Positions 9,120-51,694 of a DNA stretch of 64,000 bases are shown one piece after another (position 1 is the stretch's first letter; each line of letters starts with the position of its first letter). This DNA comes from Catellatospora sp. KI3 (GTDB lineage: Bacteria > Actinomycetota > Actinomycetes > Mycobacteriales > Micromonosporaceae), in NCBI RefSeq assembly GCF_029948125.1, contig NZ_JASAMB010000009.1, positions 1 to 64,000 on the forward strand. The letters are read 5' to 3'. The notes under the pieces were generated by a model, which was not told the origin of the DNA, ran no database searches, and worked only from the letters and a program-made list of their open reading frames with translations. A program made the position numbers and the translations under genes.

Positions 9120-9135
9120 TGGAGAGCGCTCTCCA
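9120..9135. promoter_or_regulatory. LacI-type operator, site C
   Basis: TGGAGAGCGCTCTCCA, a perfect 16-bp palindrome identical in core to site A. It is 7 bp after the DUF305-like stop and about 117 bp before the start of the discoidin-DUF1996 gene. Confidence 0.8.
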
Positions 9136-9251
9136 TCGTACTGCGGTGTGAAGCGGCCATGCCCGCCAGCAGCTCGCGGTACGGCCCGTCCCAGTTCGGC
9201 CGCTCCCGCCTGCCCAGGGCGTGGGCGTGCCCCCACCTCCCGGGAGATCGC

Positions 9252-10643
9252 ATGACAACCTCCGGCCAGTCCCGGCCGAGCCGCGCCCTCATCCGGCGCG
9301 GAATTCTCGCCGCGGCCGCGCTGACGGCCTCGCTGCTGGTGGCTCCGGCCCCCGCCGCGCAGGCCGCCACGCAGCTGCTGTCGCAGGGCAAGCCCGCGAC
9401 GGCCTCCTCCGTCGAGAACGGCGGCACCGTCGCGACCGCCGCCGTCGACGGCAACCCCACGACCCGCTGGTCCAGCGCGTGGGCCGACCCGCAGTGGCTG
9501 CGCGTCGACCTCGGCTCCTCCGCCACCATCAGCCAGGTGGTGCTGCAGTGGGAGTCGGCGTACGCGAAGGCCTTCCAGATCCAGGTGTCGGCTGACGGCA
9601 GCAACTGGACCTCGGTCTACTCGACCACGACCGGCCCCGGCGGCACCCAGACGCTCAACGTCTCGGGCACCGGCCGCTACGTGCGCATGTACGGCACGCA
9701 GCGCGCCAACGGCTACGGCTACTCGCTGTTCGAGTTCCAGGTGTACGGCGACAACGGCAGCACGCCCCCGACCTCCGGGTACGTGCTGGCCAACCCGCAG
9801 GTCACGGGCGTGACCCCGTCGACCTACAACCCGCCGCACGCCTACTTCCACGAGTTCCAGGCCAACTGCGCGTTCAGCCACGACAAGCCCGACGACCCGA
9901 TCGTGTTCGCGGGCCTGCCCGGCGCCTCGCACATGCACACGTTCATGGGCAACCGCACCACCAACGCCAACAGCACCACCGCCTCGCTGCAGGCCGGCAC
10001 CTCGACCTGCACCGCGCCGGACGACAAGTCGGGCTACTGGATGCCGACGATGTACAACGGCAACACGGTGATCACCCCGGTCGGGCCGCAGGTCATCTAC
10101 TACAAGACCGGCGTCAACGACTACACCTCGGTCCGGCCGTTCCCGCTGGGCCTGCGGTTCGTCGTGGGCAGCCCGTCGGCCACGCCCGACCAGTTCATGT
10201 ACGGCTCGGTCGAGGGCTGGGAGTGCGGCGAGAGCTACCACAACGCCGACTTCCCGTCGTACTGCCCGACGTACTCCCAGGTCAACGTCCGCTACCAGGC
10301 CCCGAGCTGCTGGAACGGCCTGTACCTGGACACGCCGGACCACAAGAGCCACATGGCGTACCCGGTGAACCTGGTCTGCCCGGCCAGCCACCCGATCGCC
10401 CTGCCGATGCTCGAGTTCAAGATGGCGTTCCCGGTCAACGGGGACATGTCGCAGGTGCGGCTGTCCAGTGGGCGGGGCTACTCGTTCCACTACGACTTCT
10501 TCAACGCCTGGGACCCGGCTACGCAGGCCGCGCTGATCACCCACTGCATCAACGGCGGCCTGCAGTGCAACGCCCGCGGGTACGACGAGACGCAGCCCGG
10601 TCGGGGTGCGGCGCTCGGCACGAACTACCGCCTGCCGGCGTAG
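9252..10643 (+). CDS. Secreted discoidin (F5/8C) plus DUF1996 protein
   Basis: A 463-aa exported protein. A signal peptide (about 1-37, RRGILAAAALTASLLVAPAP then AQAA) is followed by an F5/8 type C/CBM32-like domain (about 39-165: TRWSSAWADPQWLRVDLG, ending YSLFEFQVYG). A DUF1996 domain fills about 180-463, with HEFQANCAFSH, HMHTFMGN and several Cys residues. DUF1996 is widespread in actinobacteria and fungi, usually fused to carbohydrate-binding modules; its activity is not established. The discoidin domain closely resembles those of the neighbouring GH3 protein. GGAG precedes the ATG. LacI-type site C lies upstream and a strong terminator follows. Confidence 0.9.
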   Translation: MTTSGQSRPSRALIRRGILAAAALTASLLVAPAPAAQAATQLLSQGKPATASSVENGGTVATAAVDGNPTTRWSSAWADPQWLRVDLGSSATISQVVLQWESAYAKAFQIQVSADGSNWTSVYSTTTGPGGTQTLNVSGTGRYVRMYGTQRANGYGYSLFEFQVYGDNGSTPPTSGYVLANPQVTGVTPSTYNPPHAYFHEFQANCAFSHDKPDDPIVFAGLPGASHMHTFMGNRTTNANSTTASLQAGTSTCTAPDDKSGYWMPTMYNGNTVITPVGPQVIYYKTGVNDYTSVRPFPLGLRFVVGSPSATPDQFMYGSVEGWECGESYHNADFPSYCPTYSQVNVRYQAPSCWNGLYLDTPDHKSHMAYPVNLVCPASHPIALPMLEFKMAFPVNGDMSQVRLSSGRGYSFHYDFFNAWDPATQAALITHCINGGLQCNARGYDETQPGRGAALGTNYRLPA

Positions 10644-10653
10644 TACGCACCAC

Positions 10654-10687
10654 GGCGGTCGGCCCCGGCATGGCGGGGCCGACCGCC
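10654..10687 (+). terminator. Strong terminator hairpin
   Basis: GGCGGTCGGCCCCG and CGGGGCCGACCGCC form a perfect 14-bp stem with a 6-base loop, 10 bp after the DUF1996 gene, followed by TCTTCGTG. Confidence 0.88.
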
Positions 10688-10754
10688 TCTTCGTGTCCGG
10701 GACGGCACGCGGCAGGGCTTGACTTATCTCCGTACGTCGATGAAGCTTCGTCAT

Positions 10755-10770
10755 TGGAGAGCGCTCTCTG
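10755..10770. promoter_or_regulatory. LacI-type operator, site D
   Basis: TGGAGAGCGCTCTCTG, differing from sites A and C only at the last two bases of the right arm. It lies about 75 bp upstream of the discoidin-GH3 gene. Confidence 0.75.
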
Positions 10771-10844
10771 ACATGATCCTCCACCGCCGTGGCACGTCCC
10801 GCTCCCCACGAGACGCTGCCCGGCCTGTCCTGTCAGGAGCAGCC

Positions 10845-13931
<3,087 letters not shown>

Positions 13932-13935
13932 GTCA

Positions 13936-13984
13936 AGGAAGGGGCCCTTCTTATCGCTTCCCGTAGTGGAAGGGCCCCTTCCTA
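13936..13984. repeat. GGGGCCC palindromic repeat, copy 3
   Basis: AGGAAGGGGCCCTTCTTATCG, then a short spacer, then GGAAGGGGCCCTTCCT in the opposite arrangement to copy 1. It starts 5 bp after the GH3 stop and precedes the AfsR-like gene. A probable terminator. Confidence 0.85.
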
Positions 13985-14043
13985 ACCTCGCGCTCGGTGA
14001 ACGGGTGGTGGGCCTGTGGCTGCGGCCTGGGAGACTGGGCGGC

Positions 14044-17000
14044 ATGCGGGTGGGGATCCTCGGGCCGCTGGAGGTGGACTCCGGCGGGCGGCACATCGAG
14101 ATCACGGGGGCGCGGCTGCGCGCGCTGCTGATCCGGCTGGCGCTGGACGCGGGCCGGACCGTCAGCGTGCCCGCGCTCGCCGACGCGCTCTGGGGCGACG
14201 CCGCGCCCGCCGACCCCGCCAACGCGGTGCAGTCCCTGGTCTCGCGGCTGCGCCGGTTGCTGCCCGACGGCACGGTCAGCTTCGGCCCCGGCGGCTACCG
14301 GCTGGACCTGCCCGCCGAGGACGTCGACGCGCTGCGGTTCGAGCAGCTGGCCCGGCAGGGGCAACGGGAGCTGCGCGCCGGTGACCCGGCCGGGGCCGTA
14401 CGGTCGCTGGCGGCCGCGCTCGGACTGTGGCGCGGCGAGCCGCTGGCCGAGGTGGCCGACGCGCCGTACGCGGCCGCCCCGGCCGCCCGCTGGGCCGAGC
14501 TGCGCCTGTCCGCGGTCGAGGACCGGATCGAGGCGGAGCTGGCCGGTGACGGCGGCGAGCACCTGGTCGCCGAGCTGGAGGAGCTGACCCGGGTCCACCC
14601 GCTGCGGGAGCGCCCGCACGCGCTGCTGGTGCAGGCGCTCTACCAGGCGGGACGGCAGGCCGAGGCGCTGTCGGCGTACGACGCGCTGCGTGACCGCCTC
14701 GCCGACCAGCTCGGTCTCGACCCGTCCCCGCAACTGCGGGAGCTGCGCACCGCCGTGCTGCGCGCCGACCCGGCCCTGGCCGGGCGCAAGCCCGTCCGGC
14801 GCGGCAACCTGCGTGCCGCGCTGACCAGTTTCGTCGGCCGTGAACCCGAGCGAGCCCGCATCGAGCAGCAGCTGGCCACCGGACGTCTGGTCACCCTGGT
14901 CGGGCCGGGCGGGGCGGGCAAGACCCGCCTGGCCACGACCGTCGCCGCCGAGCACGCCGGGCGCGGCGACGGCGCGGTATGGCTGGTCGAGCTCGCCGGC
15001 GTCGTCGACCCGATCGACCTGACCCAGACCGTGCTGGCCGCCCTGGAACTGCGGGAGCTGCCGCATCTGGAGAGCACGGGCACGCCGCCCGCCCCGCGCG
15101 ACGCCGTCAGCCGCCTGGTCGAGGCGCTGTCGTCCCCCGGCACGCTGGTGCTGCTGGACAACTGCGAGCACATCGTCGCCGCCGTCGCGCAGCTGGCCGA
15201 CGACCTGCTCAGCCGCTGCCCCCGGCTGCGGATCGTGGCGACCAGCCGCGAACCGCTCGGCATCCTCGGCGAGGCCCTGTGCCCGGTCACCCCGCTGAGC
15301 CTGCCCGAACCCGACGCCGACGTGGCCCGGGCGCTGACCTTCCCGGTGGTGGAGCTGCTGCGCGACCGGGCGGTGGCCGTGCGGCCCGACTTCGCCGTCG
15401 ACGAGGGCAACGTCGCGGCGGTGGTCGAGATCTGCCGCCGCCTGGACGGGCTGCCGCTGGCGATCGAGCTGGCCGCCGCCCGGCTGCGTACGCTGTCGCC
15501 GCAGCATGTGGCCGCGCGGTTGGACGACCGGTTCCGGCTGCTCACCGGCGGCAGCCGTACCGCGCTGGCCCGGCACCGGACCCTGCGCGCCGTCGTCGAC
15601 TGGAGCTGGGACCTGCTCGGCGAGCAGGAGCGGCTGCTGGCCGCCCGGCTGGCCGTGTTCCCGGCCGGGATCGCCCACGACAGCGCCGCGGGCGTCTGCG
15701 CGGGCCCCGACCTGCCCGCCGACGAGGTGCCCGACCTGCTCGACGCGCTGGTCGACCGGTCGCTGCTGCAGCTCGTGCCCGCCGCCGAGCCCCGCTACCG
15801 CATGCTGGACACCATCCGGGAGTACGGTCTGGAGCAGCTCGCCGCCGCGGGCACCCTGGCCGCCGCGCGCGGCGCGCACCTGGCCTGGTTCCTGGAGCTG
15901 GCCGAGACCGCCGAGCCGAAGCTGCGCGGTCCGGAGCAGATCGAGTGGATCGGCCGGCTCGTCACCGAGCGGGACAACGTGCTCGCCGCACTGCACCACG
16001 CCTGCGACACCGGCGACGCCGACGCGGCGGTGCGGATGGGGGCGTCGCTGGGCCTGTTCTGGACGGTGCTCGGCGACAACGCCGAGGCGGCGACGTGGCT
16101 GGGGCAGGCGCTGGCGGTGCCGGGGCCGTCACCGGCGCAGACCCGTACCCTGGCCAGGATCTTCCACCTGATCAACAAGGCCGCGGTCGAGCCGTCGCAG
16201 GAGGGCGTCGCCAGTGTCATGGAGACGTTCGTGAAGCTGGCGGCCGAGGTGGACCCGGAGTGGGACCACCCGCTGTTCGCGCTGGTCGAACCCGCGATGG
16301 CGATGGTGGGCGACGACACCGAGGCCGGGTTGGCCGCGATCGAGCGGCGGCTGGGCCGCGCCGACCCGTGGGCGCAGGCGATGCTGCTGGCGGCGCGGGC
16401 GTTCATCCGCGACAACGACGGCGACGCCGACGGCATGTACGCCGACCTGACCGACGCGGTCGCCCGGCTGCGCGCCATCGGGGACCGGGCCGGCCTGTCG
16501 GTCGCGCTGACCGCGCTGGCAGAGGCGGAGCTGGTACGCGGGCGCGGTGCGGCCGCCGTGGGCCTGCTGCACGAGTCGATCTCGCTGGTACGGCAGCTCA
16601 GCTCCGACGACGACAGCGGCTACGCCCGGATGCGGCTGGCCGCCATGCGCGTGCACCTCGGCGAGTACGACGCCGCCCGCGCCGACCTGCGCGAGCTGGC
16701 GCGGGGCGGCAACGGCCGCGACGTGTGCGGTGCCCTGCTGACCCTGGGCGACCTCGCCCGCTACCAGGACCGGCTGGACGAGGCGGGGGAGTACTACGCG
16801 GCCGCCAAGCAGCAGGTCGCGGAGACGTTCATGGTGTCGCCGCAGTTCCTGGCGCTGATCGGCACGTCGGTGGCGCACCTGACGGTGGCCCGGCGCGACC
16901 TGGACACCGCGCGCGCGGAGCTGGCGTCCGCGCTGGTGGCAGGCGTGCAGGTCAGGGACATGCCGGTGGTGGCGAAGGTCGGCGTCGCGGTGGCGGACTA

Positions 17001-37948: not shown

Positions 37949-39091
37949 TTGAGCAGCGCGGAGATCATGGCACGGACGGCGTACGTGCGCGCGCTCGCCG
38001 ATGGTGGACACCTGGACGACGAGCACCTGGTCTGCGCCTTTCAAGAGGTACCGCGGCACGGGTTCCTGCCCGCGTTCTTCCTCTGGCAGCCCGACGGCAG
38101 GTGGCGCGGGGTCGACCGCAGAGAGCCCGACTACCTGCGGCTCGTGTACGCCGACACCGCTCTCGCCACCCAGCTCGACGGCGAGACCACCCCCGACCCG
38201 AAGGCCCCGGCCCGATCCGGCACTCCGACCTGCGGCTCCACCCGGCCCAGCCTGATGGCGACCATGCTCGAAGCCCTCGCCCTCACCGGCCGCGAGCGGG
38301 TCCTGGAGGTGGGCCTCGGCACGGGCTACAACGCCGCGCTGCTCAGCCACCGCCTCGGCGACTCCAACGTGTACAGCGTCGACGTCGACGGCGCCGTTGT
38401 GGAGGCGGCCCGCTCGCGGCTCAATTCCTGCGGCTGCGAACCGCACATCGCCACCACGGACGGGCGGTCCGGCTGGCCCGGCTCACCACGCTTCGACCGC
38501 CTCATCGCCACCTGCGCCGTCCCTGCCATACCCCCGGACTGGATCTTCCAGGTCGCCGACGGCGGCCTGATAGTCGCCAGCCTGTGGCGCGGACTCGGCG
38601 GGGGCCCGCTCGTGCGCCTGGAGGTCGACCACGGCACGGCGCAGGGCCGATTCCTGTCGATGCCAGGCGATCCCATGCCGGTACGCACCGCCGCCCGCGT
38701 CGACCCCGACGCTGCGTGGAAGGCGGCGGCCGGCCAGACCGGAGCCACCCACACCACCCCCGTCCCACCCGATGCGCTCGACCATCCGCACGCCTCACTC
38801 TGGGTGTCGCTCCTGGTACCCGACGCCGGGCGGCTCGACGTGCTGCCCGAGGACGGCTCCGCGCAGCTGTGGCTGCTGGCCCTGGACGGTTCCTGGTCGT
38901 GCCTCGACACCGGCACGAACCGGGTCGAGCAGCGCGGCCCGCGCAGGCTGTGGGACGAGGTCGAGCAGGCGTACTCCCTGTGGCGGCGCCAAGGCGAGCC
39001 TGCCCGCGAGCGCACCGGCCTCACGGTGACCCGCGACGGCCTGCACCGGATCTGGCTCGACCACCCGTCGAACGCAGCCGTTGACCTCTAG
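37949..39091 (+). CDS. PIMT-like SAM-dependent methyltransferase
   Basis: A 380-aa protein with a protein-L-isoaspartate-O-methyltransferase-like core. The segment FQEVPRHGFLP resembles the PIMT N-terminal region, GSTRPSLMATMLEALAL stands in place of the usual ISQP motif, and VLEVGLGTGYNAALLS is the SAM-binding loop (near residue 114). About 190 extra C-terminal residues contain SLLVPDAGRLDVLPEDGSAQLW. Extended PIMT homologues in actinobacteria include RiPP-modifying and repair enzymes; no precursor peptide was found here. The TTG start is behind GAGGAG; the first in-frame ATG (MARTAYVRALADGG) is seven codons later and may be used instead. Confidence 0.8.
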   Translation: MSSAEIMARTAYVRALADGGHLDDEHLVCAFQEVPRHGFLPAFFLWQPDGRWRGVDRREPDYLRLVYADTALATQLDGETTPDPKAPARSGTPTCGSTRPSLMATMLEALALTGRERVLEVGLGTGYNAALLSHRLGDSNVYSVDVDGAVVEAARSRLNSCGCEPHIATTDGRSGWPGSPRFDRLIATCAVPAIPPDWIFQVADGGLIVASLWRGLGGGPLVRLEVDHGTAQGRFLSMPGDPMPVRTAARVDPDAAWKAAAGQTGATHTTPVPPDALDHPHASLWVSLLVPDAGRLDVLPEDGSAQLWLLALDGSWSCLDTGTNRVEQRGPRRLWDEVEQAYSLWRRQGEPARERTGLTVTRDGLHRIWLDHPSNAAVDL

Positions 39092-42814: not shown

Positions 42815-43546
42815 TCAGGCTGGGGCGGGTACGAACCGGGTCGCGCGCAGGGCCTCGTAGAACGGGCGGTGGTAGGCGTCCAGCTCGGCCAGGCGCGGGT
42901 CGTTGTCGGGCCGCACCCCGTGGCGGGTCGCCTCGGTGGTGAAACCGGTGCTCGCCTCGACGTCGCGGTGCCACGCCTGGGTCCGGGAGAACATGTCCTG
43001 CGAACCGGACTGCCAGGTCAGCGCCTGGGGCAGTGGCGGCAGCCCGGTCTCGGCGCAGAACCGGGCGGCGGCCTCGGCGGGGCTGGCGGCCATCTCGTCG
43101 CCGTCAAGCACGAGCGGGTCCCGGCCGGTCGCGGCGCGTACGGCGGTGACCATGCCGTGCAGGCGCTCGAAGCCGATCTCGTCGCGCTCGACCGCCGGGT
43201 TCATGGCGTAGTGGGAGGCGATCACCGCGGCCGGGTCGCGGATCATGAAGGTGTTCACGACCGAGGTGTAGAGGCGCTGGTCGGCGAGGATCTCGTCGTA
43301 CGGGTAGTCGGTGGTCTCCTTGAAGAAGACCGTCCTGCCCCGCTCCTCGGCCAGCGCCAGCAGCAGGTCGAACAGTTCGCCGGTGCTGCCGGCGCGCCGT
43401 CCGGCGACGTCGAAGTGGCCCACTGCGGCGAGGTTGGAGAACGGCTCGTGGACCACCTCCAGGTCGCCCCGCTCGATCAGCATCCGCAGGAACGCGGTCG
43501 ACCGGGACCGGGGCACGGCCCACAGGGCGATGACGGGGGCGCTCAC
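42815..43546 (-). CDS. Sulfotransferase-family protein
   Basis: A 243-aa enzyme with the PAPS-dependent sulfotransferase pattern. The 5'-phosphosulfate loop is LWAVPRSRSTAFLRMLIER near residue 8, and the 3'-phosphate motif is FMIRDPAAVIASHYAMNP near 100. VVHEPFSNL and FFKETTDYPYDEIL match bacterial sulfotransferase homologues. It lies 37 bp after the ArgG-like gene on the same strand and probably shares its transcript. It could sulfate, or simply bind, the product of the divergent adenylation-reductase. Activity is unproven, and some relatives are only distant. Confidence 0.82.
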   Translation of the reverse strand: MSAPVIALWAVPRSRSTAFLRMLIERGDLEVVHEPFSNLAAVGHFDVAGRRAGSTGELFDLLLALAEERGRTVFFKETTDYPYDEILADQRLYTSVVNTFMIRDPAAVIASHYAMNPAVERDEIGFERLHGMVTAVRAATGRDPLVLDGDEMAASPAEAAARFCAETGLPPLPQALTWQSGSQDMFSRTQAWHRDVEASTGFTTEATRHGVRPDNDPRLAELDAYHRPFYEALRATRFVPAPA

Positions 43547-43583
43547 TGCGATCGGTCTCTCTTCGTCGGCGGTGCGGGGCGGG

Positions 43584-44753
43584 TCAGTTCGCGGACGGGT
43601 CGTGCCAGCGGTTGCCGCCGGAGCCGAACCGGGTCTGCTGGTCGCCCCCGGTGCCGGGGGCTTCGATGCCCTCGGCCCGCGCCCGGCCCTGGTGCAGGCT
43701 GAGCTGGACCGTGGCGGTGACGGCGCGGGTGAGTTCGTCCATGGCCAGGCGGGCGGCGGCCGGCGCGGCGGCCTCGTGGCGGGCCTCGTAGACGGCGGCG
43801 CCGAGCACCGGGGCCAGCGTCCGGTAGAGGGCCTGGGCGTGCGGGTCGAGGCAGACCTCGAGGGCGCGCTGCCAGGCGACGTCGAGCACTTCGAGGCCGG
43901 GAGCCTCGTAGACGCCCCGGCAGCGGGTGCCGATGATGCGCCGCTCGACCACGTCGCGCAGCCAGATCCCGTGCCGGGCGCCGAGGTCGTTGGCGGTGGT
44001 CAGGACCCGGACCGGGTCGGGGCCGCTGCCGTCGACGTCGGTGACCTCGCCGTCGGTGAAGGTGACGGTGACGGTGTCGGCCCGCTCGGGCGCCTCGGCG
44101 GGCCAGGCGCTCCAGCGGGGGCGCAGCGTGCGGGGGCCCACCGGGTTGGCGAGGTCCTCCAGCGCGGTCGACTCGTGTGAGGCGCCGGCGAGGTTGGCGT
44201 CGGTGGAGCGGTCGGCGTCGCTGCCCTCGTCGAGCGGCAGGCCGGCGTGCTCGACCGCGGCGAGCATCTCCTTGCGGCCGGGGAAGCGGGCCAGGGCGTC
44301 CGGGTCGGTCCAGGGGGCGAAGACGGGCAGGTCGGGGGCGAACGCGCGACCGTACGCCGCGAAGCGCCGCTGGTCGTTGCCGCCGCCCACGCAGCCGTGG
44401 GCCAGCACCGTGCAGCCGTCGGCGCGCATCCGCCCGACCAGCCCTTCGACCAGGACGTGGCGCGAGGCGCCGGTGGTATTCCAGTATCCGCCGTCGTGGC
44501 GGGCCTGGTGGCGCAGCAGCCGCAGACCCATCGCGGCCATGCTCGGGCGCAGGTCGACGGCGGTGGCCTCGAACCCGTGCGCGCGCAGCCCGGCGACGAC
44601 CCCGTCGACGCCGTCGTCGTGCTGTCCGATGTCGGCCACGTAGTGATGGCTGGCGATCCCGTTGTCGCGCAGCCACACGCCGAGAGCGAGGCTGGACAGG
44701 CCGCCCGCCTGGAATACGCCGACGTGCTGGCCGGCCAGTTCCCGGTGTCGCAT
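43584..44753 (-). CDS. Argininosuccinate-synthase homologue with degenerate ATP loop
   Basis: A 389-aa homologue of ArgG. Downstream family motifs are kept: VLAHGCVGGGNDQRRFAAYG (GCTGKGNDQxRFE in ArgG), PVFAPW and STDANLAGASHESTALED (SxDxNLWGxSxE). The N-terminal pyrophosphatase loop SGGLDTS, which handles ATP, reads AGGLSSL here (residues about 16-22), losing the Asp and both key Ser/Thr positions. It is therefore unlikely to be the housekeeping ArgG. It may use a different chemistry or serve the adjacent NRPS-like locus. ATG 44753 follows a GAGAGG site; GTG-like extensions to 44804 are possible. Confidence 0.8.
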   Translation of the reverse strand: MRHRELAGQHVGVFQAGGLSSLALGVWLRDNGIASHHYVADIGQHDDGVDGVVAGLRAHGFEATAVDLRPSMAAMGLRLLRHQARHDGGYWNTTGASRHVLVEGLVGRMRADGCTVLAHGCVGGGNDQRRFAAYGRAFAPDLPVFAPWTDPDALARFPGRKEMLAAVEHAGLPLDEGSDADRSTDANLAGASHESTALEDLANPVGPRTLRPRWSAWPAEAPERADTVTVTFTDGEVTDVDGSGPDPVRVLTTANDLGARHGIWLRDVVERRIIGTRCRGVYEAPGLEVLDVAWQRALEVCLDPHAQALYRTLAPVLGAAVYEARHEAAAPAAARLAMDELTRAVTATVQLSLHQGRARAEGIEAPGTGGDQQTRFGSGGNRWHDPSAN

Positions 44754-44804
44754 CTGCTCGTGCCTCTCGCCCTGGGTGCCGCGCGGGCCGGGTCGGTCCG
44801 CCAA

Positions 44805-45017
44805 AACCCGGCCACCCTAGCAGTGGTCCACAAAGGACGACAAGACTCTTCCCAATAGACTTTGATGTATGTTAGTAACTACAGCTGATCCATAAAAGTC
44901 AATCGGTTAACAATTGTGAATCCAATGTGTACATGACGTGACGTCGTCGAATCGGGACCCGACTTCCGGCGGCGCAGACGTGCGGGGACGATGCCCGCGC
45001 GGCGGGAGGGACCTGTT
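44805..45017. promoter_or_regulatory. AT-rich divergent promoter region of the A-T-R locus
   Basis: Bases 44820-44945 are strikingly AT-rich for this genome. Plus strand: TTAACA (44907-44912), 17 bp, TACATG (44930-44935). Minus strand: TTGACT (complement of 44897-44902) followed by TTACTA-like sequence. GTTAAC and CAATTG palindromes are present near the plus-strand promoter. A GGGAGGG ribosome site (45004-45010) sits before GTG 45018. Confidence 0.6.
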
Positions 45018-48000
45018 GTGGAGACGCGCGCATCCATCGTGCGACCGGTCGGGCAGCTGTGGGCCGGGGTCGGCCCGGCACTGGCGGTACCCTCCGACTG
45101 CTCGGTGCTCGACCTGTTCGAAGCCGCGGCGGACCGCCACCCGGACCGCCCGGCCGTCCGCTACCGCGACCGCGAGCTGACCTACCGCGAACTCGACCGG
45201 CTCGCCGAGGCGATCGCGGTGCGCCTGCGCGACGCGGGCGCGGTCCCGGGCGGGTTCGTCCCGCTGGTCGTCAACGAGGGCGTCGAGTTCCCGGCGGCGC
45301 TGCTGGCGGCGATGAAGGTCGGCGCGCCGTTCGTGCCCATCGACCCGGAGTGGCCGACCACCCGCATCGAGGGCCTGTTCGGCCAGCTCGCGCCCAGCGC
45401 CGTGCTGGCGGTCGAGGCGACGCTGCCGGTGGTGCGGGCCGTCGGCGCCGACGACCTCGTGGTCCGCGCCGACCTCGGCCCGGCCGAGCAGGCCGGTGAA
45501 CCGGAGCCGGGGGTGCGGCCCGGCCCCGAGGACCTCATCTACGGGTACTTCACCTCGGGCTCCACCGGCACCCCCAAGTGCGCCCTCAACCGGCACCGGG
45601 GCCTGGTCAACCGGATGGCGTCGATGTCGTTCCACTTCGGCGACGGCGCCGACCAGGTCGTGCTGCAGAACAGCCGCCCCACCTTCGACTCCTCCATGTG
45701 GCAGGTGCTGTGGCCGCTGACCACGGGCGGCCTGGTGGTCATGCCCGACCGGCGCGGCATCCTCGACCTGGAGGGCACCTGCCGCATCCTGGCCGAGCAC
45801 GGCGTCACGATCACCGACTTCGTGCCGTCGGTGCTCAGCGCCCTGGTCACCCTGCTCGAACTGCGCCCGGAGCTGCGGACGAGCCTGGCCGGCCTGCGCC
45901 GCATGCTCATCGGCGGCGAGGAGGCCAACGCGGCCGTGCTGCGCCGACTGCGCGAGCTGCTGCCCAACCTGCGCGTCACCAACACGTTCGGGCCGACCGA
46001 GTGCTCGATCGGCTCGGTGTTCCACCACATCGACGACCTGTCCGGCCGGATCCCGCTCGGCACCCCCATCCCCAACACGGCCGCGGTGGTGCTCGACGAC
46101 GAGATGCGGCCCGTGCCCGCGCTGACCGTCGGCGAGATCTACATCGGCGGGGCGTGCGTCGGCGCCGGGTACCTCGGCGACCCGGCGCGCACCGAGCGGG
46201 CCTTCGTGCCCAACCCGTTCCCGCAGATCGGCGGCGAGCTGCTCTACCGCACCGGCGACCTGGGCCACCACACCGCCGACGGGCTGCTGATGTTCGACGG
46301 CAGGCGCGACGACCAGGTCAAGGTCGGCGGCGTACGGATCGAGCTGGCCGAGGTCGAGCGGGTGCTCAGCGCCCACCCGTCGGTCCAGGCGGCGGCCGTG
46401 ATCACCCGGGGCGAGGGCGACGCCCGCTCGCTCGCCGCGTTCGTCGTGGCGCGACCGGGGGCCGGCATCGAGGTGGGGCCGCTGCTGGACTGGCTGCGCA
46501 CCGAGCTGCCGCCCGAGACCGTGCCGCAGACGGTCACCCCGGTGCGGGCGATCCCGCTGACCTCGCACGGCAAGGCCGACCGCAAGGCCCTGGAGCGGAT
46601 CGCCCGCGACAGCGCCGCCACCGGCCCGGTCGAGCAGCCCGCCAGCGTCGAGGAGGAGCTGGTCGCCGCCGTCTGGCGCGAGCTGCTCGGCGTCGGCGAG
46701 GTGTCGGTGGTCGCGTCCTTCGCCGGGTACGGCGGCACGTCGCTGCTCGCCCACCAGGTCGCGACGCTGCTGACGGTCCGCTGCGGGCGCCCGGTGCACG
46801 TGGCCGACCTGCTGAGTGCCGACACGGTACGCGCGCAGGCCCGGCTGCTCGTCGACGGCGCGACCGGCCGTACGGCCCTCGACGTGTCCCGGCTGCGCCG
46901 CGACGCCGATGCTTCCGCGCTGGTCACCGCGCAGGTGCCCCGCCCGCCGCAGACCGCGAGCCGGCTGCTGCTGACCGGTGCCACCGGGTTCATCGGCGCG
47001 CACCTGCTGGCGGAGCTGCTCGCCGGGCCGCGGGTCGAGCTGGTCTGCCTGGTCCGCGCCGCGGACGCCGAACAGGCGGCCAGGCGGCTGGTCGAGGTGC
47101 TCCGGGCGTACCGGCTGAATGACGCTCTCGCCGTGCTGGAGCCCCGACTGGCCGACGGCTCGGTCCGGGCACTGCCCGGCGACCTGGCCCAGGCCGGGCT
47201 CGGCCTGTCCGGACCGCAGTTCAAGGAGCTGGCCGAGGAGATCGACGGGGTCGTCCACGCCGGTGCGATGGTCAACTTCCTGCGCGACTACGACGGCCAC
47301 CGCGCGCCCAACGTGGCCGGCACCGGCGAGCTGATCCGGCTGGCCACCGCCGGGAAGGGCTGCCGCCTGCACGTCCTGTCCACCCTGAGCGTCCTGGGCG
47401 GCACGGGGGCGGACCTGGACGGTCCGGCCGCGCTGCCCGGCCTCGACGAGCTCCCGCCCGGCGGGTACGAGCAGTCCAAACTGGTCGCCGAGCACCTGCT
47501 CCTCGGCGCCCGCGCACTCGGCGTGGACTCGGTCGTCTACCGGCTGGGCGAGATATGGCCGCACCGGGTGACCGGCGTGCCGAACCCGGCGTCGCTGGCC
47601 CACTCGATCGTGTACGCGGCGGCCGCCACCGGCGTCGTCTTCCCCACCGAAGCGAGCACCGACCACCTCGCCGTCGACGCGGTGGCCCGGCACCTGGCGG
47701 CGGTGGCGGTCGGGCACCGGCCCGCCACGGACACGGTCCACCTGGTCCGGCCGTCGACGCTGCGCTACGCCGACGTCTTCGACCACCTGGCCCGAGCCGG
47801 CGCGCAGCCGCTGGGGTATCCGGAGTTCCGGCGGCGCCTGGTCGCGCTGACGGAGCAGGACGGCGCGGACGAACGCCTGATCCGGGTCGCGATGCTGCTG
47901 CCGCCGGCCGACGACGCCGAGCCCGCCGCACCGCCCGCCTTCGACCGCCTGTTCACCGACAGCTCGGCCGACCCCGGCCCGGCCGTAGGCACCGCAGGGC

Positions 48001-48065
48001 TCTACGAAGGATCGCCGCTGACCGACCTCACCCCGTTCCTGGAGGCGGTGACCGCCCGTCGCTGA
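45018..48065 (+). CDS. NRPS-like carboxylate reductase: adenylation-thiolation-reductase
   Basis: A 1015-aa single-module megasynthase. The adenylation domain (about 28-530) has YFTSGSTGTPK (177-187), TFGPTECSIGS, LYRTGDLG and GRRDDQVKVGGVRIE; Lys519 lies in TSHGKADRKAL. Asp224 in FDSSMWQ fits alpha-amino-acid selection. In the thiolation domain Ser575 (YGGTSLLAHQ) carries phosphopantetheine. The thioester reductase domain (about 645-1015) has NADPH loop TGATGFIGAHLL and a YEQSK Tyr-Lys pair. It should activate an amino acid or carboxylic acid and release it as an aldehyde or alcohol. There is no condensation domain. GGGAGGG seven bases before GTG 45018 fixes the start. Confidence 0.93.
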   Translation: METRASIVRPVGQLWAGVGPALAVPSDCSVLDLFEAAADRHPDRPAVRYRDRELTYRELDRLAEAIAVRLRDAGAVPGGFVPLVVNEGVEFPAALLAAMKVGAPFVPIDPEWPTTRIEGLFGQLAPSAVLAVEATLPVVRAVGADDLVVRADLGPAEQAGEPEPGVRPGPEDLIYGYFTSGSTGTPKCALNRHRGLVNRMASMSFHFGDGADQVVLQNSRPTFDSSMWQVLWPLTTGGLVVMPDRRGILDLEGTCRILAEHGVTITDFVPSVLSALVTLLELRPELRTSLAGLRRMLIGGEEANAAVLRRLRELLPNLRVTNTFGPTECSIGSVFHHIDDLSGRIPLGTPIPNTAAVVLDDEMRPVPALTVGEIYIGGACVGAGYLGDPARTERAFVPNPFPQIGGELLYRTGDLGHHTADGLLMFDGRRDDQVKVGGVRIELAEVERVLSAHPSVQAAAVITRGEGDARSLAAFVVARPGAGIEVGPLLDWLRTELPPETVPQTVTPVRAIPLTSHGKADRKALERIARDSAATGPVEQPASVEEELVAAVWRELLGVGEVSVVASFAGYGGTSLLAHQVATLLTVRCGRPVHVADLLSADTVRAQARLLVDGATGRTALDVSRLRRDADASALVTAQVPRPPQTASRLLLTGATGFIGAHLLAELLAGPRVELVCLVRAADAEQAARRLVEVLRAYRLNDALAVLEPRLADGSVRALPGDLAQAGLGLSGPQFKELAEEIDGVVHAGAMVNFLRDYDGHRAPNVAGTGELIRLATAGKGCRLHVLSTLSVLGGTGADLDGPAALPGLDELPPGGYEQSKLVAEHLLLGARALGVDSVVYRLGEIWPHRVTGVPNPASLAHSIVYAAAATGVVFPTEASTDHLAVDAVARHLAAVAVGHRPATDTVHLVRPSTLRYADVFDHLARAGAQPLGYPEFRRRLVALTEQDGADERLIRVAMLLPPADDAEPAAPPAFDRLFTDSSADPGPAVGTAGLYEGSPLTDLTPFLEAVTARR

Positions 48066-48126
48066 CCCGGGTGACCTGGCGTCCCCGGATCGTCGGTCCG
48101 GATCATCCGTCCTATATGGTGTATCA

Positions 48127-48750
48127 GTGCTGCTCGATCCCGGCCTGCTCGCCGTCTTCCTCGTCGCCGTCCTGGTCATCTGCCTGACCCCGGGGCCGGA
48201 CATGCTCTACATCCTGGCCACGTCCATCAGCCAGGGGGTCAGGGCGGGCCTGGTCGCCTCGGTCGGCATGTCCCTGGGCATGCTGGTGCACACCGCGCTG
48301 GTGGCGGCAGGTCTGGCCGCCGCGATGGCCGCCGTCCCGGTGCTGTACGACGTGGTCCGCTACGCCGGGGCCGCGTACCTGCTCTACATCGGCATCCGCT
48401 CGTGGCGGGAGAGCGCCGGGGCGACCGAGGTCGAGCTGCGCCCGGTGCTGCCGCTGCGCACCGTGCTGTGGCGGGCCACCGTGACGAACCTGCTCAACCC
48501 GAAGATCGTCCTGTTCTACCTGGCGTTCCTGCCCCAGTTCGTGGCGCCCGACCGGGGCCGCACCGGGCTGCAGCTGCTGGTGCTCGGCCTGCTGTTCGTG
48601 CTGGTGGGCCTGCTCGTCGACGCGGTCATCGCGGTCGCCTCGGGCCGCCTGGGCCAGTGGCTCCAGCGCCGCCGCCCCATCTCGGGCATCCTCAACCGCA
48701 TCGCCGCCGCCGTCTTCGTGGCCCTCGCGGTCCGCCTCGTCTTCGCCTGA
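48127..48750 (+). CDS. LysE/RhtB-family exporter
   Basis: A 207-aa inner-membrane translocator with six predicted segments. The family signature near the N-terminus is LTPGPDMLYILATSISQGVRAG, and TNLLNPKIVLFYLAFLPQFV lies near residue 120. The family exports amino acids and derivatives. It lies 61 bp after the adenylation-reductase gene on the same strand but has its own leaderless start (TATGGT at 48115-48120, six bases, GTG). Export of the product of that locus is an attractive inference. Confidence 0.92.
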   Translation: MLLDPGLLAVFLVAVLVICLTPGPDMLYILATSISQGVRAGLVASVGMSLGMLVHTALVAAGLAAAMAAVPVLYDVVRYAGAAYLLYIGIRSWRESAGATEVELRPVLPLRTVLWRATVTNLLNPKIVLFYLAFLPQFVAPDRGRTGLQLLVLGLLFVLVGLLVDAVIAVASGRLGQWLQRRRPISGILNRIAAAVFVALAVRLVFA

Positions 48751-49030: not shown

Positions 49031-51694
49031 ATGCAGCGAGCACGTCCACCGGCGCGCCTGCGCCGCGCCGTCCTGTCCGCCCTCACCGGCCTGGCCGTGG
49101 TCGCGGCCGGGCTGACCACCACCGAGGCACCGGCCGTCGCCGCGCCCGCCCAGCCGTCCCCGCTCACCACCCCCTGGACCGCCCAGGCCCTCAACGGCAC
49201 GCCGCTGCCGGAGTACCCCCGGCCGCAGATGACCCGCCCGGACTGGCAGAACCTCAACGGCGAGTGGCAGCTGCGCCAGTCGACCACCAACGACGCCCCG
49301 GTCTTCGGCCAGACCCTGCCCGAGCGCGTCAACGTGCCGTTCCCGGTCGAGTCGGCGCTGTCGGGCATCAAGCGCCCCGCCAACGACACCCGCTACTACC
49401 TGTTCTACCGACGCACCTTCACCGTCCCGGCGGGCTGGGCCGGCCGGCGGGTGCAGCTGCACTTCGGCGCGGTCGACTGGCAGACCACGGTCTGGGTCAA
49501 CGGCGTACAGGTCGGCGGCCACACCGGCGGCTACGACCGGTTCGAGTTCGACATCACCCCGCAGCTCAACGGCGGCACCAACGAGCTGATCGTGAAGGTG
49601 TTCGACCCGACCGACTCCGGGGTCAACGGCACCAACCCGGTCCGCGGCAAGCAGGTGCGCAACCCGGGCGGCATCATGTACATCCCGTCGTCGGGCATCT
49701 GGCAGACGGTGTGGCTGGAGCCGACGCCGACCTCGTCGATCTACAGCGTCGACTTCTACCCCAACCTGAGCAACAACACGCTGCGGGTGCGCGTCTTCAC
49801 GCGCGGGGACGTGACCGGGCACTCGGTGTTCGCCGAGGCGCTCAACGGCTCCACCGTCGTGGGCAGCGCCACCGGCGCGTTCACCGACTTCAGCGTGCCG
49901 GTGCCCAACGCCCGCCGCTGGTCGCCCGACGACCCGTTCCTCTACAACCTGCGCATCTCGCTGCGCAACTCCGGCGGCACCACGGTCGACCAGACCATGC
50001 ACTACTTCGGGATGCGCGAGATCGGCAAGGCCGTCATCAACGGGCGGCTCATGCCGACCCTCAACGGCCAGTTCGTGATGCAGAACGGCACCCTGGACCA
50101 GGGCTTCTGGCCCGACGGGCTGTACACCGCGCCGACCGACGCGGCGCTCGCCGCCGACCTGCAGAAGATCAAGGACCTCGGCCTGAACATGGTGCGCAAG
50201 CACATCAAGGTCGAGCCGCAGCGCTGGTTCTACCACGCCGACCGCATCGGCCTGCTGGTCTGGCAGGACATGCCGAGCATGCACGGCGTGCCCGGCACCG
50301 CCGAGCAGCACGCCCAGTTCGAGACCGAGCTGGGCCAGATCGTCGACGAGCACCGCTCGGCCCCGTCGGTGATCGCGTACGTGCCGTTCAACGAGGGCTG
50401 GGGCGAGTGGAACCTCGCCGACACCAGCCGCATCGTGCAGAACGTCAAGAACCAGGACCCGACCCGGTTCGTCAACGCCCACAGCGGCTTCAACTGCTGC
50501 AACTCCAAGGGCGACCCGGCCAACGGCGACTTCATCGACTGGCACATGTACGTCGGCCCCGACGCCCCCATCCCGTCGGGCACCCGCGTCTCGGTGCTGG
50601 GGGAGTACGGCGGCCTCGGCATCCGCACCCCCGGCCACGAGTACAGCCCGAACGGCAACTTCGGGGCGTACGAGATGCACTCCACCGTCCAGTCGATCAC
50701 CGACCGGTACGTCGGCCTGATCAACCGGGCGACCACGCTGATGTACAGCCGCGGCGCCAGCGCGCTGGTCTACACCCAGCCGTTCGACGTCGAGGGTGAG
50801 GTCAACGGCTTCTGGACGTACGACCGGCAGGTCATGAAGTTCGACCTCGCCCGGGTCCGCGCCGCGAATCTCGGCATCATCGCGGCGTCCAAGCAGCTCA
50901 ACACCAGCCCGCCGCCCGGCGGGCAGAACCTGTTCGGCCCCGGCGGCAAGTGCGTCGACGTGGCCTCCGACGACACCGGCGGCAACGGCGCGGCCGTGCA
51001 GCTGTGGGACTGCCAGGGCTTCGCCGCCGACATGCGCTGGGCCTGGAACGGCAGCACCCTGCGCACGCTGGGCCGGTGCCTGGACGTCACCAACAACGGC
51101 ACCGGCAACGGCGCCCTGCTCCAGCTGTGGGACTGCAACGGCGGCGGCGCCCAGAACTGGGTCCCGCAGGCCAACGGCACGCTGCTCAACCCGCAGTCGG
51201 GCCGCTGCATCGACGCCCCGAACGGGGCCACCGCCAACGGGACCAGGCTGCAGATCTGGGACTGCAACGGCTCCGGGGCGCAGCTGATCCGCATCGGCGG
51301 CGGCCACGGCAGCGCCACCAACATCCTCGGCCCCGGCGGCAAGTGCGTCGACGTCGCCGCCGACGACACCGGGGGCAACGGCGCGGCCGTGCAGCTGTGG
51401 GACTGCCAGGGCACCTCGCAGGACCAGCGCTGGAGCTGGAACGGCCTGACGCTGCGCTCGCTGGGCCGGTGCCTGGACGTCACCGGCAACGGCACCGCCA
51501 ACGGGGTGCAGCTGCAGCTGTGGGACTGCAACGGCGGCGGCGCCCAGAACTGGGTGCCGCAGGCCAACGGCGGGCTGCGCAACCCGCAGTCGGGCCGCTG
51601 CGTCGACTCACCGAGCGGGTCCACCGCCAACGGGGCCCGGCTGCAGATCTACGACTGCAACGGCTCGGGCGCGCAGGTGTTCAGCAAGCAGTGA
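49031..51694 (+). CDS. Secreted glycoside hydrolase family 2 with two ricin-B lectin domains
   Basis: An 887-aa exported beta-glycosidase. A signal peptide (about 1-38) is followed by the GH2 sugar-binding domain (about 60-215, with LFYRRTFTVPAGWAGRRVQLHFGAVDW), an immunoglobulin-like domain (about 220-335) and the TIM barrel (about 340-625). Glu455 in FNEGWGEW is the probable acid/base and Glu525 in VLGEYGG the nucleophile. Two ricin-B (CBM13) modules follow (about 635-755 and 765-887), each with repeated GRCLDV and QLWDCNGGGAQNW units. The exact glycan is unknown. GAGGAG precedes the ATG by five bases. Confidence 0.93.
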   Translation: MQRARPPARLRRAVLSALTGLAVVAAGLTTTEAPAVAAPAQPSPLTTPWTAQALNGTPLPEYPRPQMTRPDWQNLNGEWQLRQSTTNDAPVFGQTLPERVNVPFPVESALSGIKRPANDTRYYLFYRRTFTVPAGWAGRRVQLHFGAVDWQTTVWVNGVQVGGHTGGYDRFEFDITPQLNGGTNELIVKVFDPTDSGVNGTNPVRGKQVRNPGGIMYIPSSGIWQTVWLEPTPTSSIYSVDFYPNLSNNTLRVRVFTRGDVTGHSVFAEALNGSTVVGSATGAFTDFSVPVPNARRWSPDDPFLYNLRISLRNSGGTTVDQTMHYFGMREIGKAVINGRLMPTLNGQFVMQNGTLDQGFWPDGLYTAPTDAALAADLQKIKDLGLNMVRKHIKVEPQRWFYHADRIGLLVWQDMPSMHGVPGTAEQHAQFETELGQIVDEHRSAPSVIAYVPFNEGWGEWNLADTSRIVQNVKNQDPTRFVNAHSGFNCCNSKGDPANGDFIDWHMYVGPDAPIPSGTRVSVLGEYGGLGIRTPGHEYSPNGNFGAYEMHSTVQSITDRYVGLINRATTLMYSRGASALVYTQPFDVEGEVNGFWTYDRQVMKFDLARVRAANLGIIAASKQLNTSPPPGGQNLFGPGGKCVDVASDDTGGNGAAVQLWDCQGFAADMRWAWNGSTLRTLGRCLDVTNNGTGNGALLQLWDCNGGGAQNWVPQANGTLLNPQSGRCIDAPNGATANGTRLQIWDCNGSGAQLIRIGGGHGSATNILGPGGKCVDVAADDTGGNGAAVQLWDCQGTSQDQRWSWNGLTLRSLGRCLDVTGNGTANGVQLQLWDCNGGGAQNWVPQANGGLRNPQSGRCVDSPSGSTANGARLQIYDCNGSGAQVFSKQ

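Follow-up and report, generated by a model that had tools for sequence, protein, structure and literature searches.

Aziridine natural products such as azinomycins alkylate DNA. One account of the azinomycin route describes a reductase (AziC4), a transketolase (AziC5/C6), and an aminotransferase, perhaps working on an amino-group carrier protein (AmCP) as in vazabitide biosynthesis, and reports that 2,6-diamino-5,7-dihydroxyheptanoate (DADH) is sulfated before a neighboring amine displaces the sulfate (PMC9570651). Another account gives O7-sulfo-DADH as the ligand that AziU3/U2 binds in PDB entry 7WUX and describes the fold as novel (PMC11168924). A review terms AziU3/U2 functionally an aziridine synthase and uses the Wenker name for aziridine synthesis in which a beta-amino alcohol O-sulfate is the classic precursor (PMC12559475). 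Here we consider a locus of Catellatospora sp. KI3 that lies in a 64,000-nucleotide stretch of DNA (contig NZ_JASAMB010000009.1, positions 1 to 64,000; hereafter the window) and encodes a single-module nonribosomal peptide synthetase (NRPS) with adenylation, thiolation, and reductase domains (ATR), a relative of argininosuccinate synthase (ArgG), a sulfotransferase (ST), and a LysE-type exporter. With moderate confidence, we favor the view that this cassette carries out an enzymatic version of the Wenker aziridine synthesis, and that its ArgG-like protein closes the ring as a non-homologous substitute for AziU3/U2. The use of sulfate as a leaving group in aziridine formation is already known; what is new is the front end and, probably, an ArgG-derived ring-closing enzyme.

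A conserved gene cassette in actinobacteria

Cassette counts were taken from the best 80 of 203 loci retained from a scan of a genome collection, together with genome regions. A search of 200 genomes of the same family with the ArgG-like protein gave five positives at an E value of 1e-60, including the window's own 8.2-Mb genome, in which the 64-kb window is part of contig C89. Twenty-eight rows held both ArgG-like and ST genes, and one of these (L145) equals another (L026, Herbidospora galbida) over 15,000 identical bases, leaving 27 distinct loci; two further duplicates had been removed earlier (L032, the same as L015, and L044, the same as L016/L106). Judged from gene content, the four-gene arrangement is not due to chance, because ArgG-like and ST genes recur together in all 27 distinct loci and an ATR gene accompanies them in 26, none being seen in the L019 DNA examined. 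ATR, ArgG-like, and ST genes adjoin in those 26 loci and all four genes are found together in nine, which bears out the proposal in a preliminary description of the window that they form a single co-conserved biosynthetic locus and refutes the opposing case it had named, that related genomes never hold them as neighbors.

A gene for an aldo-keto reductase (AKR) is the other usual member of the cassette, being missing only from the window. It is found in 26 of the 27 loci when a 66-amino-acid match in L017 is counted, and in 24 of the 27 at 80% or more of full length. The hosts include Micromonospora, Herbidospora, Nonomuraea, Kibdelosporangium, Lentzea, Rhodococcus rhodnii, Actinomadura, and Streptomyces, as well as metagenome-assembled genomes. 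Among 25 to 26 loci, many of them closely related, the distances of ArgG-like, ATR, ST, and AKR proteins are correlated in every pairing (Mantel r 0.96-0.98), a result equaled in 0 of 2000 permutations.

Two forms of the cassette can be distinguished. The compact form comprises nine loci (the window, L014, L018, L035, L050, L053, L056, L060, and L069), each with a LysE gene and none with extended genes. No LysE gene is present in the other 18 (absences from a locus refer, here and below, to the locus DNA examined). The extended set includes a condensation-adenylation-thiolation (C-A-T) NRPS module, found at 50% or more identity in 16 of the 27 loci and in more distant versions in L017 and L036, along with two acyl-CoA dehydrogenase-type proteins (ACAD-a in 17 loci, ACAD-b in 16) and a thioesterase (15 loci); the window lacks both the ACAD pair and the C-A-T module. 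CysD-like and CysN-CysC-like sulfate-activation genes accompany eight of the 27 loci and would supply 3'-phosphoadenosine 5'-phosphosulfate (PAPS).

Of the 26 ATR proteins, 24 share the adenylation domain code DSWDLGTIGK, the exceptions being L017 (DAWDLGTIGK) and L035 (DSWDYGTIGK), which suggests a single substrate across cassettes. No occurrence of the codes DSWDLGTIG, DVSDFGGVT, or DVGDFGGVT was found in the open-licence papers searched, and, among the matches listed there, nothing stood out that pairs aziridines with argininosuccinate synthase. In L017, a single gene at positions 9126-15374 on the plus strand joins an ArgG-like domain to an NRPS that has two condensation domains, one adenylation domain, and one thiolation domain. 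This fusion connects, in the Rosetta-stone sense, the ArgG-like protein with an azabicycle-type module.

Kinship with azabicycle and aziridine clusters

The preliminary description held that this combination of genes matches no recognized pathway. This is wrong, as the ST, together with the C-A-T module and ACAD pair of the extended clusters, is akin to proteins of azinomycin- and ficellomycin-type azabicycle clusters. Such AmCP-type clusters were defined by the presence of LysX and LysY, and LysX was found in 16 of the 200 family genomes at an E value of 1e-50. Fifteen of these 16 clusters contain an ST of the window's type, 14 of which have AziU3 and one, from Pseudosporangium, an ArgG-like gene; the sixteenth (G186) has neither. 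A class-wide search at 1e-30 placed LysX in 15 of 394 genomes at 16 places, and five of the 12 places examined have the window-type ST. All five of those genomes also carry AziU3. In L133, L143, and L144 its gene shares a 20-kb stretch with LysX; in G331 and G582 the two are separated by about 11 kb and about 26 kb, respectively. AziU3 was recognized by PDB entry 7wuw (E 5e-57 for the L143 relative) and AziU2 likewise (E 4e-42), and the AziU2 gene adjoins that for AziU3 in 14 family loci.

Taken together, all 20 examined AmCP-type clusters with this ST, which is 40-46% identical to that of the window, hold exactly one of AziU3 (19 clusters) or the ArgG-like protein (one cluster). Neither is present in the eight AmCP-type clusters that lack this ST, so that the comparison stands at 20/20 against 0/8, with kinship among the clusters ignored in the Fisher test. 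At the level of whole genomes the two also do not overlap (AziU3 in 14 and the ArgG-like gene in five of 200 family genomes, and in five and two, respectively, of 394 class genomes), which is no proof of exclusivity given that chance alone predicts little overlap. Seven further class matches to the ArgG-like protein were left out of these counts as canonical, three of them (L126-L128) by their SGGLD motif and four by score only.

The Pseudosporangium locus (L016/L106/L107) places the ArgG-like and ST genes beside genes for LysX, an ArgC/LysY-type reductase, a transketolase, and a DegT protein, and resembles the azinomycin route. AziU3 was not found at an E value of 1e-5 in the Pseudosporangium genome, nor in that of the window. 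Furthermore, none of the 27 ATR cassettes contains relatives of AziU3, AziU2, LysX, LysY, transketolase, or DegT. The possibility that AziU3 is itself an ArgG homolog was ruled out: the 7WUX fold is described as novel, the ArgG-like profile has no PDB match to it, and the L143 AziU3 relative matches 7wuw.

The extended cassettes provide another tie to azabicycle clusters. For the ACAD of one of them, the best PDB match is 8hk0 (E 4e-88; next best 3e-44), which we take to be the Fic32-33 oxidase. Because its ACAD matches 8hk0 over the whole length (384 of 384 residues, 840 bits), locus L133 (G371:C1:1367201-1387200) is probably the ficellomycin cluster itself, and it contains relatives of both AziU3 and AziU2. 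The NRPS module code is DVFDFGGVTK in L133, L135, and L107 as well as in cassette L017, DVSDFGGVTK in most extended cassettes, and DVGDFGGVTK in L036 and L106.

Altered residues in the ArgG-like clade and the genes of the window

The ArgG-like protein of the window scores 201.2 bits against the TIGR00032 argG model, for which the cutoff is 268.2, whereas the other copy in the genome (on G000:C17) reaches 468.5. A housekeeping role for the window gene was ruled out by this separate, true ArgG. The predicted structure of the ArgG-like protein (mean predicted local distance difference test score, pLDDT, 86.7) matches argininosuccinate synthase in Foldseek (E 1e-30; template-modeling score, TM, about 0.8). 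Thus the fold is kept, and a comparison of 28 clade members (the 27 cassettes and Pseudosporangium) with 55 canonical-type sequences points to altered chemistry. The PP-loop residue D37 is replaced by Ser in 27 of 28 members and by Leu in the other; T40 has become Ala, T139 Val, R141 Gly, and S295 Cys in all 28, and K197 has become Ala in 25. D37, T139, and R141 are intact in each of the 55 canonical-type sequences. N143, D144, R147, S200, E287, and Y299 are retained in the clade. From ArgG structures, we take these altered and retained positions to belong to the Mg/pyrophosphate, aspartate, and citrulline sites. Also, a short tail of the pattern Q[TA]RF..GG..W, which occurs in none of the 55 canonical-type loci, replaces the C-terminal tail of ArgG, and its residues Q390, R392, F393, G396, G397, and W400 are invariant in all 28 members.

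These losses bear on the earlier suggestion that the ArgG-like enzyme joins or modifies the aldehyde. In six genomes with the ArgG-like gene, 25 lyase genes of the ArgH/ADSL family (PF00206) were found, none closer than 100 kb to the cassette on the same contig; such genes share the cassette contig only in G037, a one-contig genome, with the nearest about 116 kb away. Aspartate-dependent joining by this enzyme is therefore unlikely, because the aspartate loop and PP-loop Asp have been lost throughout the clade and no lyase gene is near the cassette in those six genomes, and a role as joining enzyme is probably wrong.

The four genes were recovered where the preliminary description had placed them, with the domains it had assigned (Table 1). 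Its reading of the ATR as reducing an amino acid to the aldehyde is supported by the domains, its call of an amino-acid-type exporter agrees with the PF01810 match, and its AT-rich divergent promoter corresponds to a 186-bp spacer holding the 100-bp minimum of the 64 kb, with 37% GC at 44831 against 72% overall. The aspartate that it numbered Asp224, as the contact for an amino-acid amine, is present, although in the frame beginning at 44991 it is numbered D233; the offset of nine would fit another start codon. A different start may also apply to the ArgG-like gene, for which the ATG at 44753 may be the true one.

Table 1. Features of the cassette in the window
Feature	Position	Strand	Evidence
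ST (Sulfotransfer_5, PAPS-type)	42815..43546	-	PF19798 56.9 bits (cutoff 23.2)
ArgG-like protein	43584..44804	-	PF00764 and PF20979, both over cutoff
Divergent AT-rich promoter region	44805..44990	.	Lowest-GC 100 bp of the window
Single-module NRPS (ATR)	44991..48065	+	AMP-binding, PP-binding, and NAD_binding_4 domains
ATR adenylation domain	~45117-46574	+	
ATR thiolation domain (Ser584)	~46659-46850	+	
ATR reductase domain	~46968-47693	+	
LysE/RhtB-type amino-acid exporter	48127..48750	+	PF01810 122.7 bits (cutoff 25.6)

The ATR exceeds the cutoffs of both TIGR01733 (363.6 vs 317.4) and TIGR01746 (214.1 vs 213.35). It carries GGTS at 581, presumably the carrier motif, and TGATGFIG at 662 and GYEQSK at 825, to which we likewise assume the usual roles, with YxxxK retained in the reductase domain. 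By its domains it is classed as an NRPS reductase without a condensation domain, since adenylation, thiolation (Ser), and thioester-reductase domains are all present. The motifs of a PAPS-type sulfotransferase are intact in the ST, as had been claimed: P12, R13, S16, and T17 of the 5'-loop, as well as R103 and S111, are invariant across 23 aligned homologs, and we take these to be PAPS-binding positions. Its AlphaFold model has a pLDDT of 84.6, and the nearest structures are tyrosylprotein sulfotransferases bound to 3'-phosphoadenosine 5'-phosphate, with weak TM scores of 0.37-0.51.

Two neighboring genes may be mentioned. At 37949-39091 on the plus strand lies a methyltransferase gene of the ATP-grasp peptide maturase type (TIGR04188, 385 bits; cutoff 380), which hints at a locus for ribosomally synthesized and post-translationally modified peptides beside the cassette. 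A family 2 glycoside hydrolase with two ricin-type lectin stretches is encoded at 49031-51694 on the plus strand and adjoins the exporter gene.

A candidate second route to aziridines

The gene set with its domains and motifs, the co-inheritance, the lost residues, and the kinship of ST, C-A-T module, and ACADs to azabicycle clusters can be read from sequence, and the ATR and ST steps would follow from the domains. We infer each reaction, the substrate, and the ring-closing role. In the proposed pathway, the ATR would load an alpha-amino acid and free it as the amino aldehyde, which the AKR would reduce to the beta-amino alcohol; in the window strain this step would probably fall to a paralog about 163 kb away. 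The ST would then use PAPS to form the O-sulfate; this sulfation, which the preliminary description had raised as a possible modification, more likely creates a leaving group than a decoration. The ArgG-like enzyme, using no aspartate and probably no ATP, would grip the amino-acid head in the former citrulline site, with the distal C6-N/C7-O portion of the sulfated product roughly in the position that citrulline's activated ureido group would take, and would catalyze displacement of the sulfate by the neighboring amine to give the aziridine. LysE would export the free aziridine amino acid in the compact form, and in extended clusters the C-A-T module and ACAD pair would lead onward to a 1-azabicyclo[3.1.0]hexane.

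The cassette substrate is probably diaminopimelate. This is the simplest candidate because the module code and ACADs match those of clusters for C7 2,6-diamino acids and the pocket of the ArgG-like protein keeps the amino-acid-head residues. 2,6-Diaminopimelate would thus be converted to 2,6-diamino-7-hydroxyheptanoate (5-deoxy-DADH), its 7-O-sulfate, and finally 2-amino-5-(aziridin-2-yl)pentanoate. The full proposal is tentative, and we consider it possible rather than probable. It holds that an ArgG fold shorn of ATP and aspartate use has become an aziridine synthase, with sulfate at the former position of the activated phosphate, that it stands in for AziU3/U2, to which it is unrelated, and that its partner, an NRPS-type reductase, makes the C7 diamino alcohol directly from diaminopimelate.

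Several other explanations have to be weighed. It is unlikely that aziridine closure is the work of the ST by itself or of spontaneous chemistry, with the ArgG-like protein performing another step or just binding and shielding the product. This alternative draws on the review cited above, which states that sulfotransferases generate aziridines via cyclization after sulfation (PMC12559475), on a reported sulfation and intramolecular cyclization in ficellomycin biosynthesis, and on an ATR-AKR-ST set elsewhere in the same genome, described below, that has a capsid-like protein beside its ST and neither AziU3 nor an ArgG-like protein. Against it, every examined AmCP-type cluster with this ST carries one or the other, and L133, whose ACAD marks it as ficellomycin-like, also has AziU3 and AziU2. 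We also regard as quite unlikely that the ArgG-like enzyme still uses ATP and activates an amide or ureido oxygen, as does ArtA, to yield a nitrile, amidine, or cyclic guanidine, with the sulfate step separate. ArtA does show that an ArgG fold is capable of amide-to-nitrile chemistry (PMC13060819); it is a structural match of the ArgG-like protein (TM 0.76-0.77, 18-20% identity), and the retained citrulline-type residues would fit such chemistry. Yet the PP-loop Asp is replaced in the whole clade and Lys197 in most of it, the ArgG-like protein is much nearer to canonical ArgG than to ArtA (E 2e-77 vs 9e-13), and its gene replaces that for AziU3 in one azabicycle-type cluster. A Q..S.D pattern that corresponds to Q146, S197, and D199 reported for ArtA (PMC13060819) is present in the ArgG-like protein and equally in canonical ArgG, by a mapping that is itself indirect.

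We give little weight to the idea that the pathway stops at a stable sulfated amino alcohol or aldehyde, such as an N-acyl amino-alcohol sulfate, and forms no aziridine. The ATR-AKR-ST series would yield a sulfated amino alcohol directly, and sulfated hydroxyls have been proposed for encapsulin clusters with pairs of short-chain dehydrogenase/reductase (SDR) and ST genes (PMC8346489), but this would leave the ArgG-like gene without a role and does not account for the azabicycle-type ACAD pair and NRPS code of the extended clusters. That the four genes are unrelated neighbors can practically be dismissed. In favor of this view are a kinase gene that also adjoins the ST gene and the lack of a local AKR; synteny over several genera, with 27 distinct loci and correlated divergence, refutes it. 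A leupeptin-type protease inhibitor, an idea prompted by the combination of ATR and LysE, was set aside, as accounts of the leup genes, in the portions available, name no ArgG or ST (PMC11480411, PMC8283571, PMC10548850, PMC11212599); one account gives the leup cluster separate AMP-dependent ligases and a reductase.

A challenge to ring closure by the ArgG-like protein comes from the window's own genome. Its second ATR-AKR-ST set (L104 10146-16435, minus strand; about 210146-216435 of G000:C89) includes the AKR paralog mentioned above, a 67% relative at C89:211760-212737, and its ATR code is DSWDIGGIGK. Its ST gene overlaps by 2 bp a 303-amino-acid HK97 capsid-like gene, which is probably a family 3 (natural product) encapsulin; a relationship of this protein to AziU3 was ruled out by its match to HK97 capsids. 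Because this set has neither an ArgG-like protein nor AziU3, ring closure may need neither, or may act in trans. Similarly, four AmCP-type loci (L137 6648-9159, L139 2823-5685, L140 3999-5778, and L171 10705-13288) pair a different type of sulfotransferase with a capsid-like gene. The sulfotransferase of L137 is Sulfotransfer_3 by Pfam and those of the other three are 57-68% identical to it; an SDR gene is present in L137 by Pfam and SDR-like genes can be seen by eye in L139 and L171. According to one account, sulfotransferases, SDRs, NRPSs, and AmCPs are common in family 3 encapsulin clusters (PMC8346489). Overall, three partners of the sulfate step (AziU3/U2, the ArgG-like protein, and the capsid-like protein) seem to alternate, which weakens the notion of an always-dedicated ring-closing enzyme or hints that the capsid-like shell has a related part.

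Other observations also count against our proposal. The AKR gene is absent from the window, and the L017 match is only a fragment. Pseudosporangium is the sole case of replacement within one cluster type, being found through its ArgG-like gene and again through LysX. Many loci are closely related, so the cassette and co-inheritance counts are not independent. Weak partial matches to AziU3 (27-36 bits) occur elsewhere in G037, G021, G472, and G438. At the edge of an AziU3/LysX/ST cluster, L166 (873-1739) has a thioester-reductase-type match (35%), the only AziU3 locus with one, and the ATR and AmCP front ends are thus not perfectly separate. Adenylation codes cannot by themselves name diaminopimelate as substrate. 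A search for AlkZ-type self-resistance genes in six genomes with the ArgG-like gene found none within 40 kb of the cassette; AlkZ-like copies occur elsewhere in all 11 genomes searched, and the window genome has seven.

If the proposal is true, it describes a second, independently evolved way to make aziridine amino acids, spread across several actinobacterial families, and an easily recognized marker for it would be the combination of an ATR with the code DSWDLGTIGK, an AKR, a Sulfotransfer_5 protein, and an ArgG-like protein with the motif SGGLS. It would also provide a clear case of an enzyme of central metabolism that sheds its ATP chemistry and is recruited for ring closure.

Several known systems can be compared with the cassette. 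With azinomycin-, ficellomycin-, and vazabitide-type clusters it shares a homologous Sulfotransfer_5 protein (27 of 27 cassettes) and the logic of sulfate as leaving group, and extended cassettes add a homologous ACAD pair and the C-A-T module code DVxDFGGVTK. Unlike azabicycle clusters, the cassettes lack LysX, LysY, transketolase, DegT, and AziU3/U2, and have instead an ATR and AKR front end and the ArgG-like protein. The reaction proposed for this protein, displacement of sulfate by the neighboring amine, is the same as that of AziU3/U2, although its profile does not find AziU3/U2 in the PDB. The clade has the fold and citrulline-type residues of ArgG but lacks its PP-loop Asp, aspartate loop, and C-terminal tail, and falls below the family cutoff. 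The nitrile synthetase ArtA/NitB of auranthine biosynthesis is likewise an ArgG-fold enzyme recruited to a natural-product pathway, yet it is far from the clade in sequence despite the structural match, and we know of no sulfotransferase partner for it. Family 3 encapsulin clusters also combine sulfotransferase, reductase, and AmCP or NRPS genes; the window has no relative of their capsid-like protein, whereas the second set in the same genome has one.

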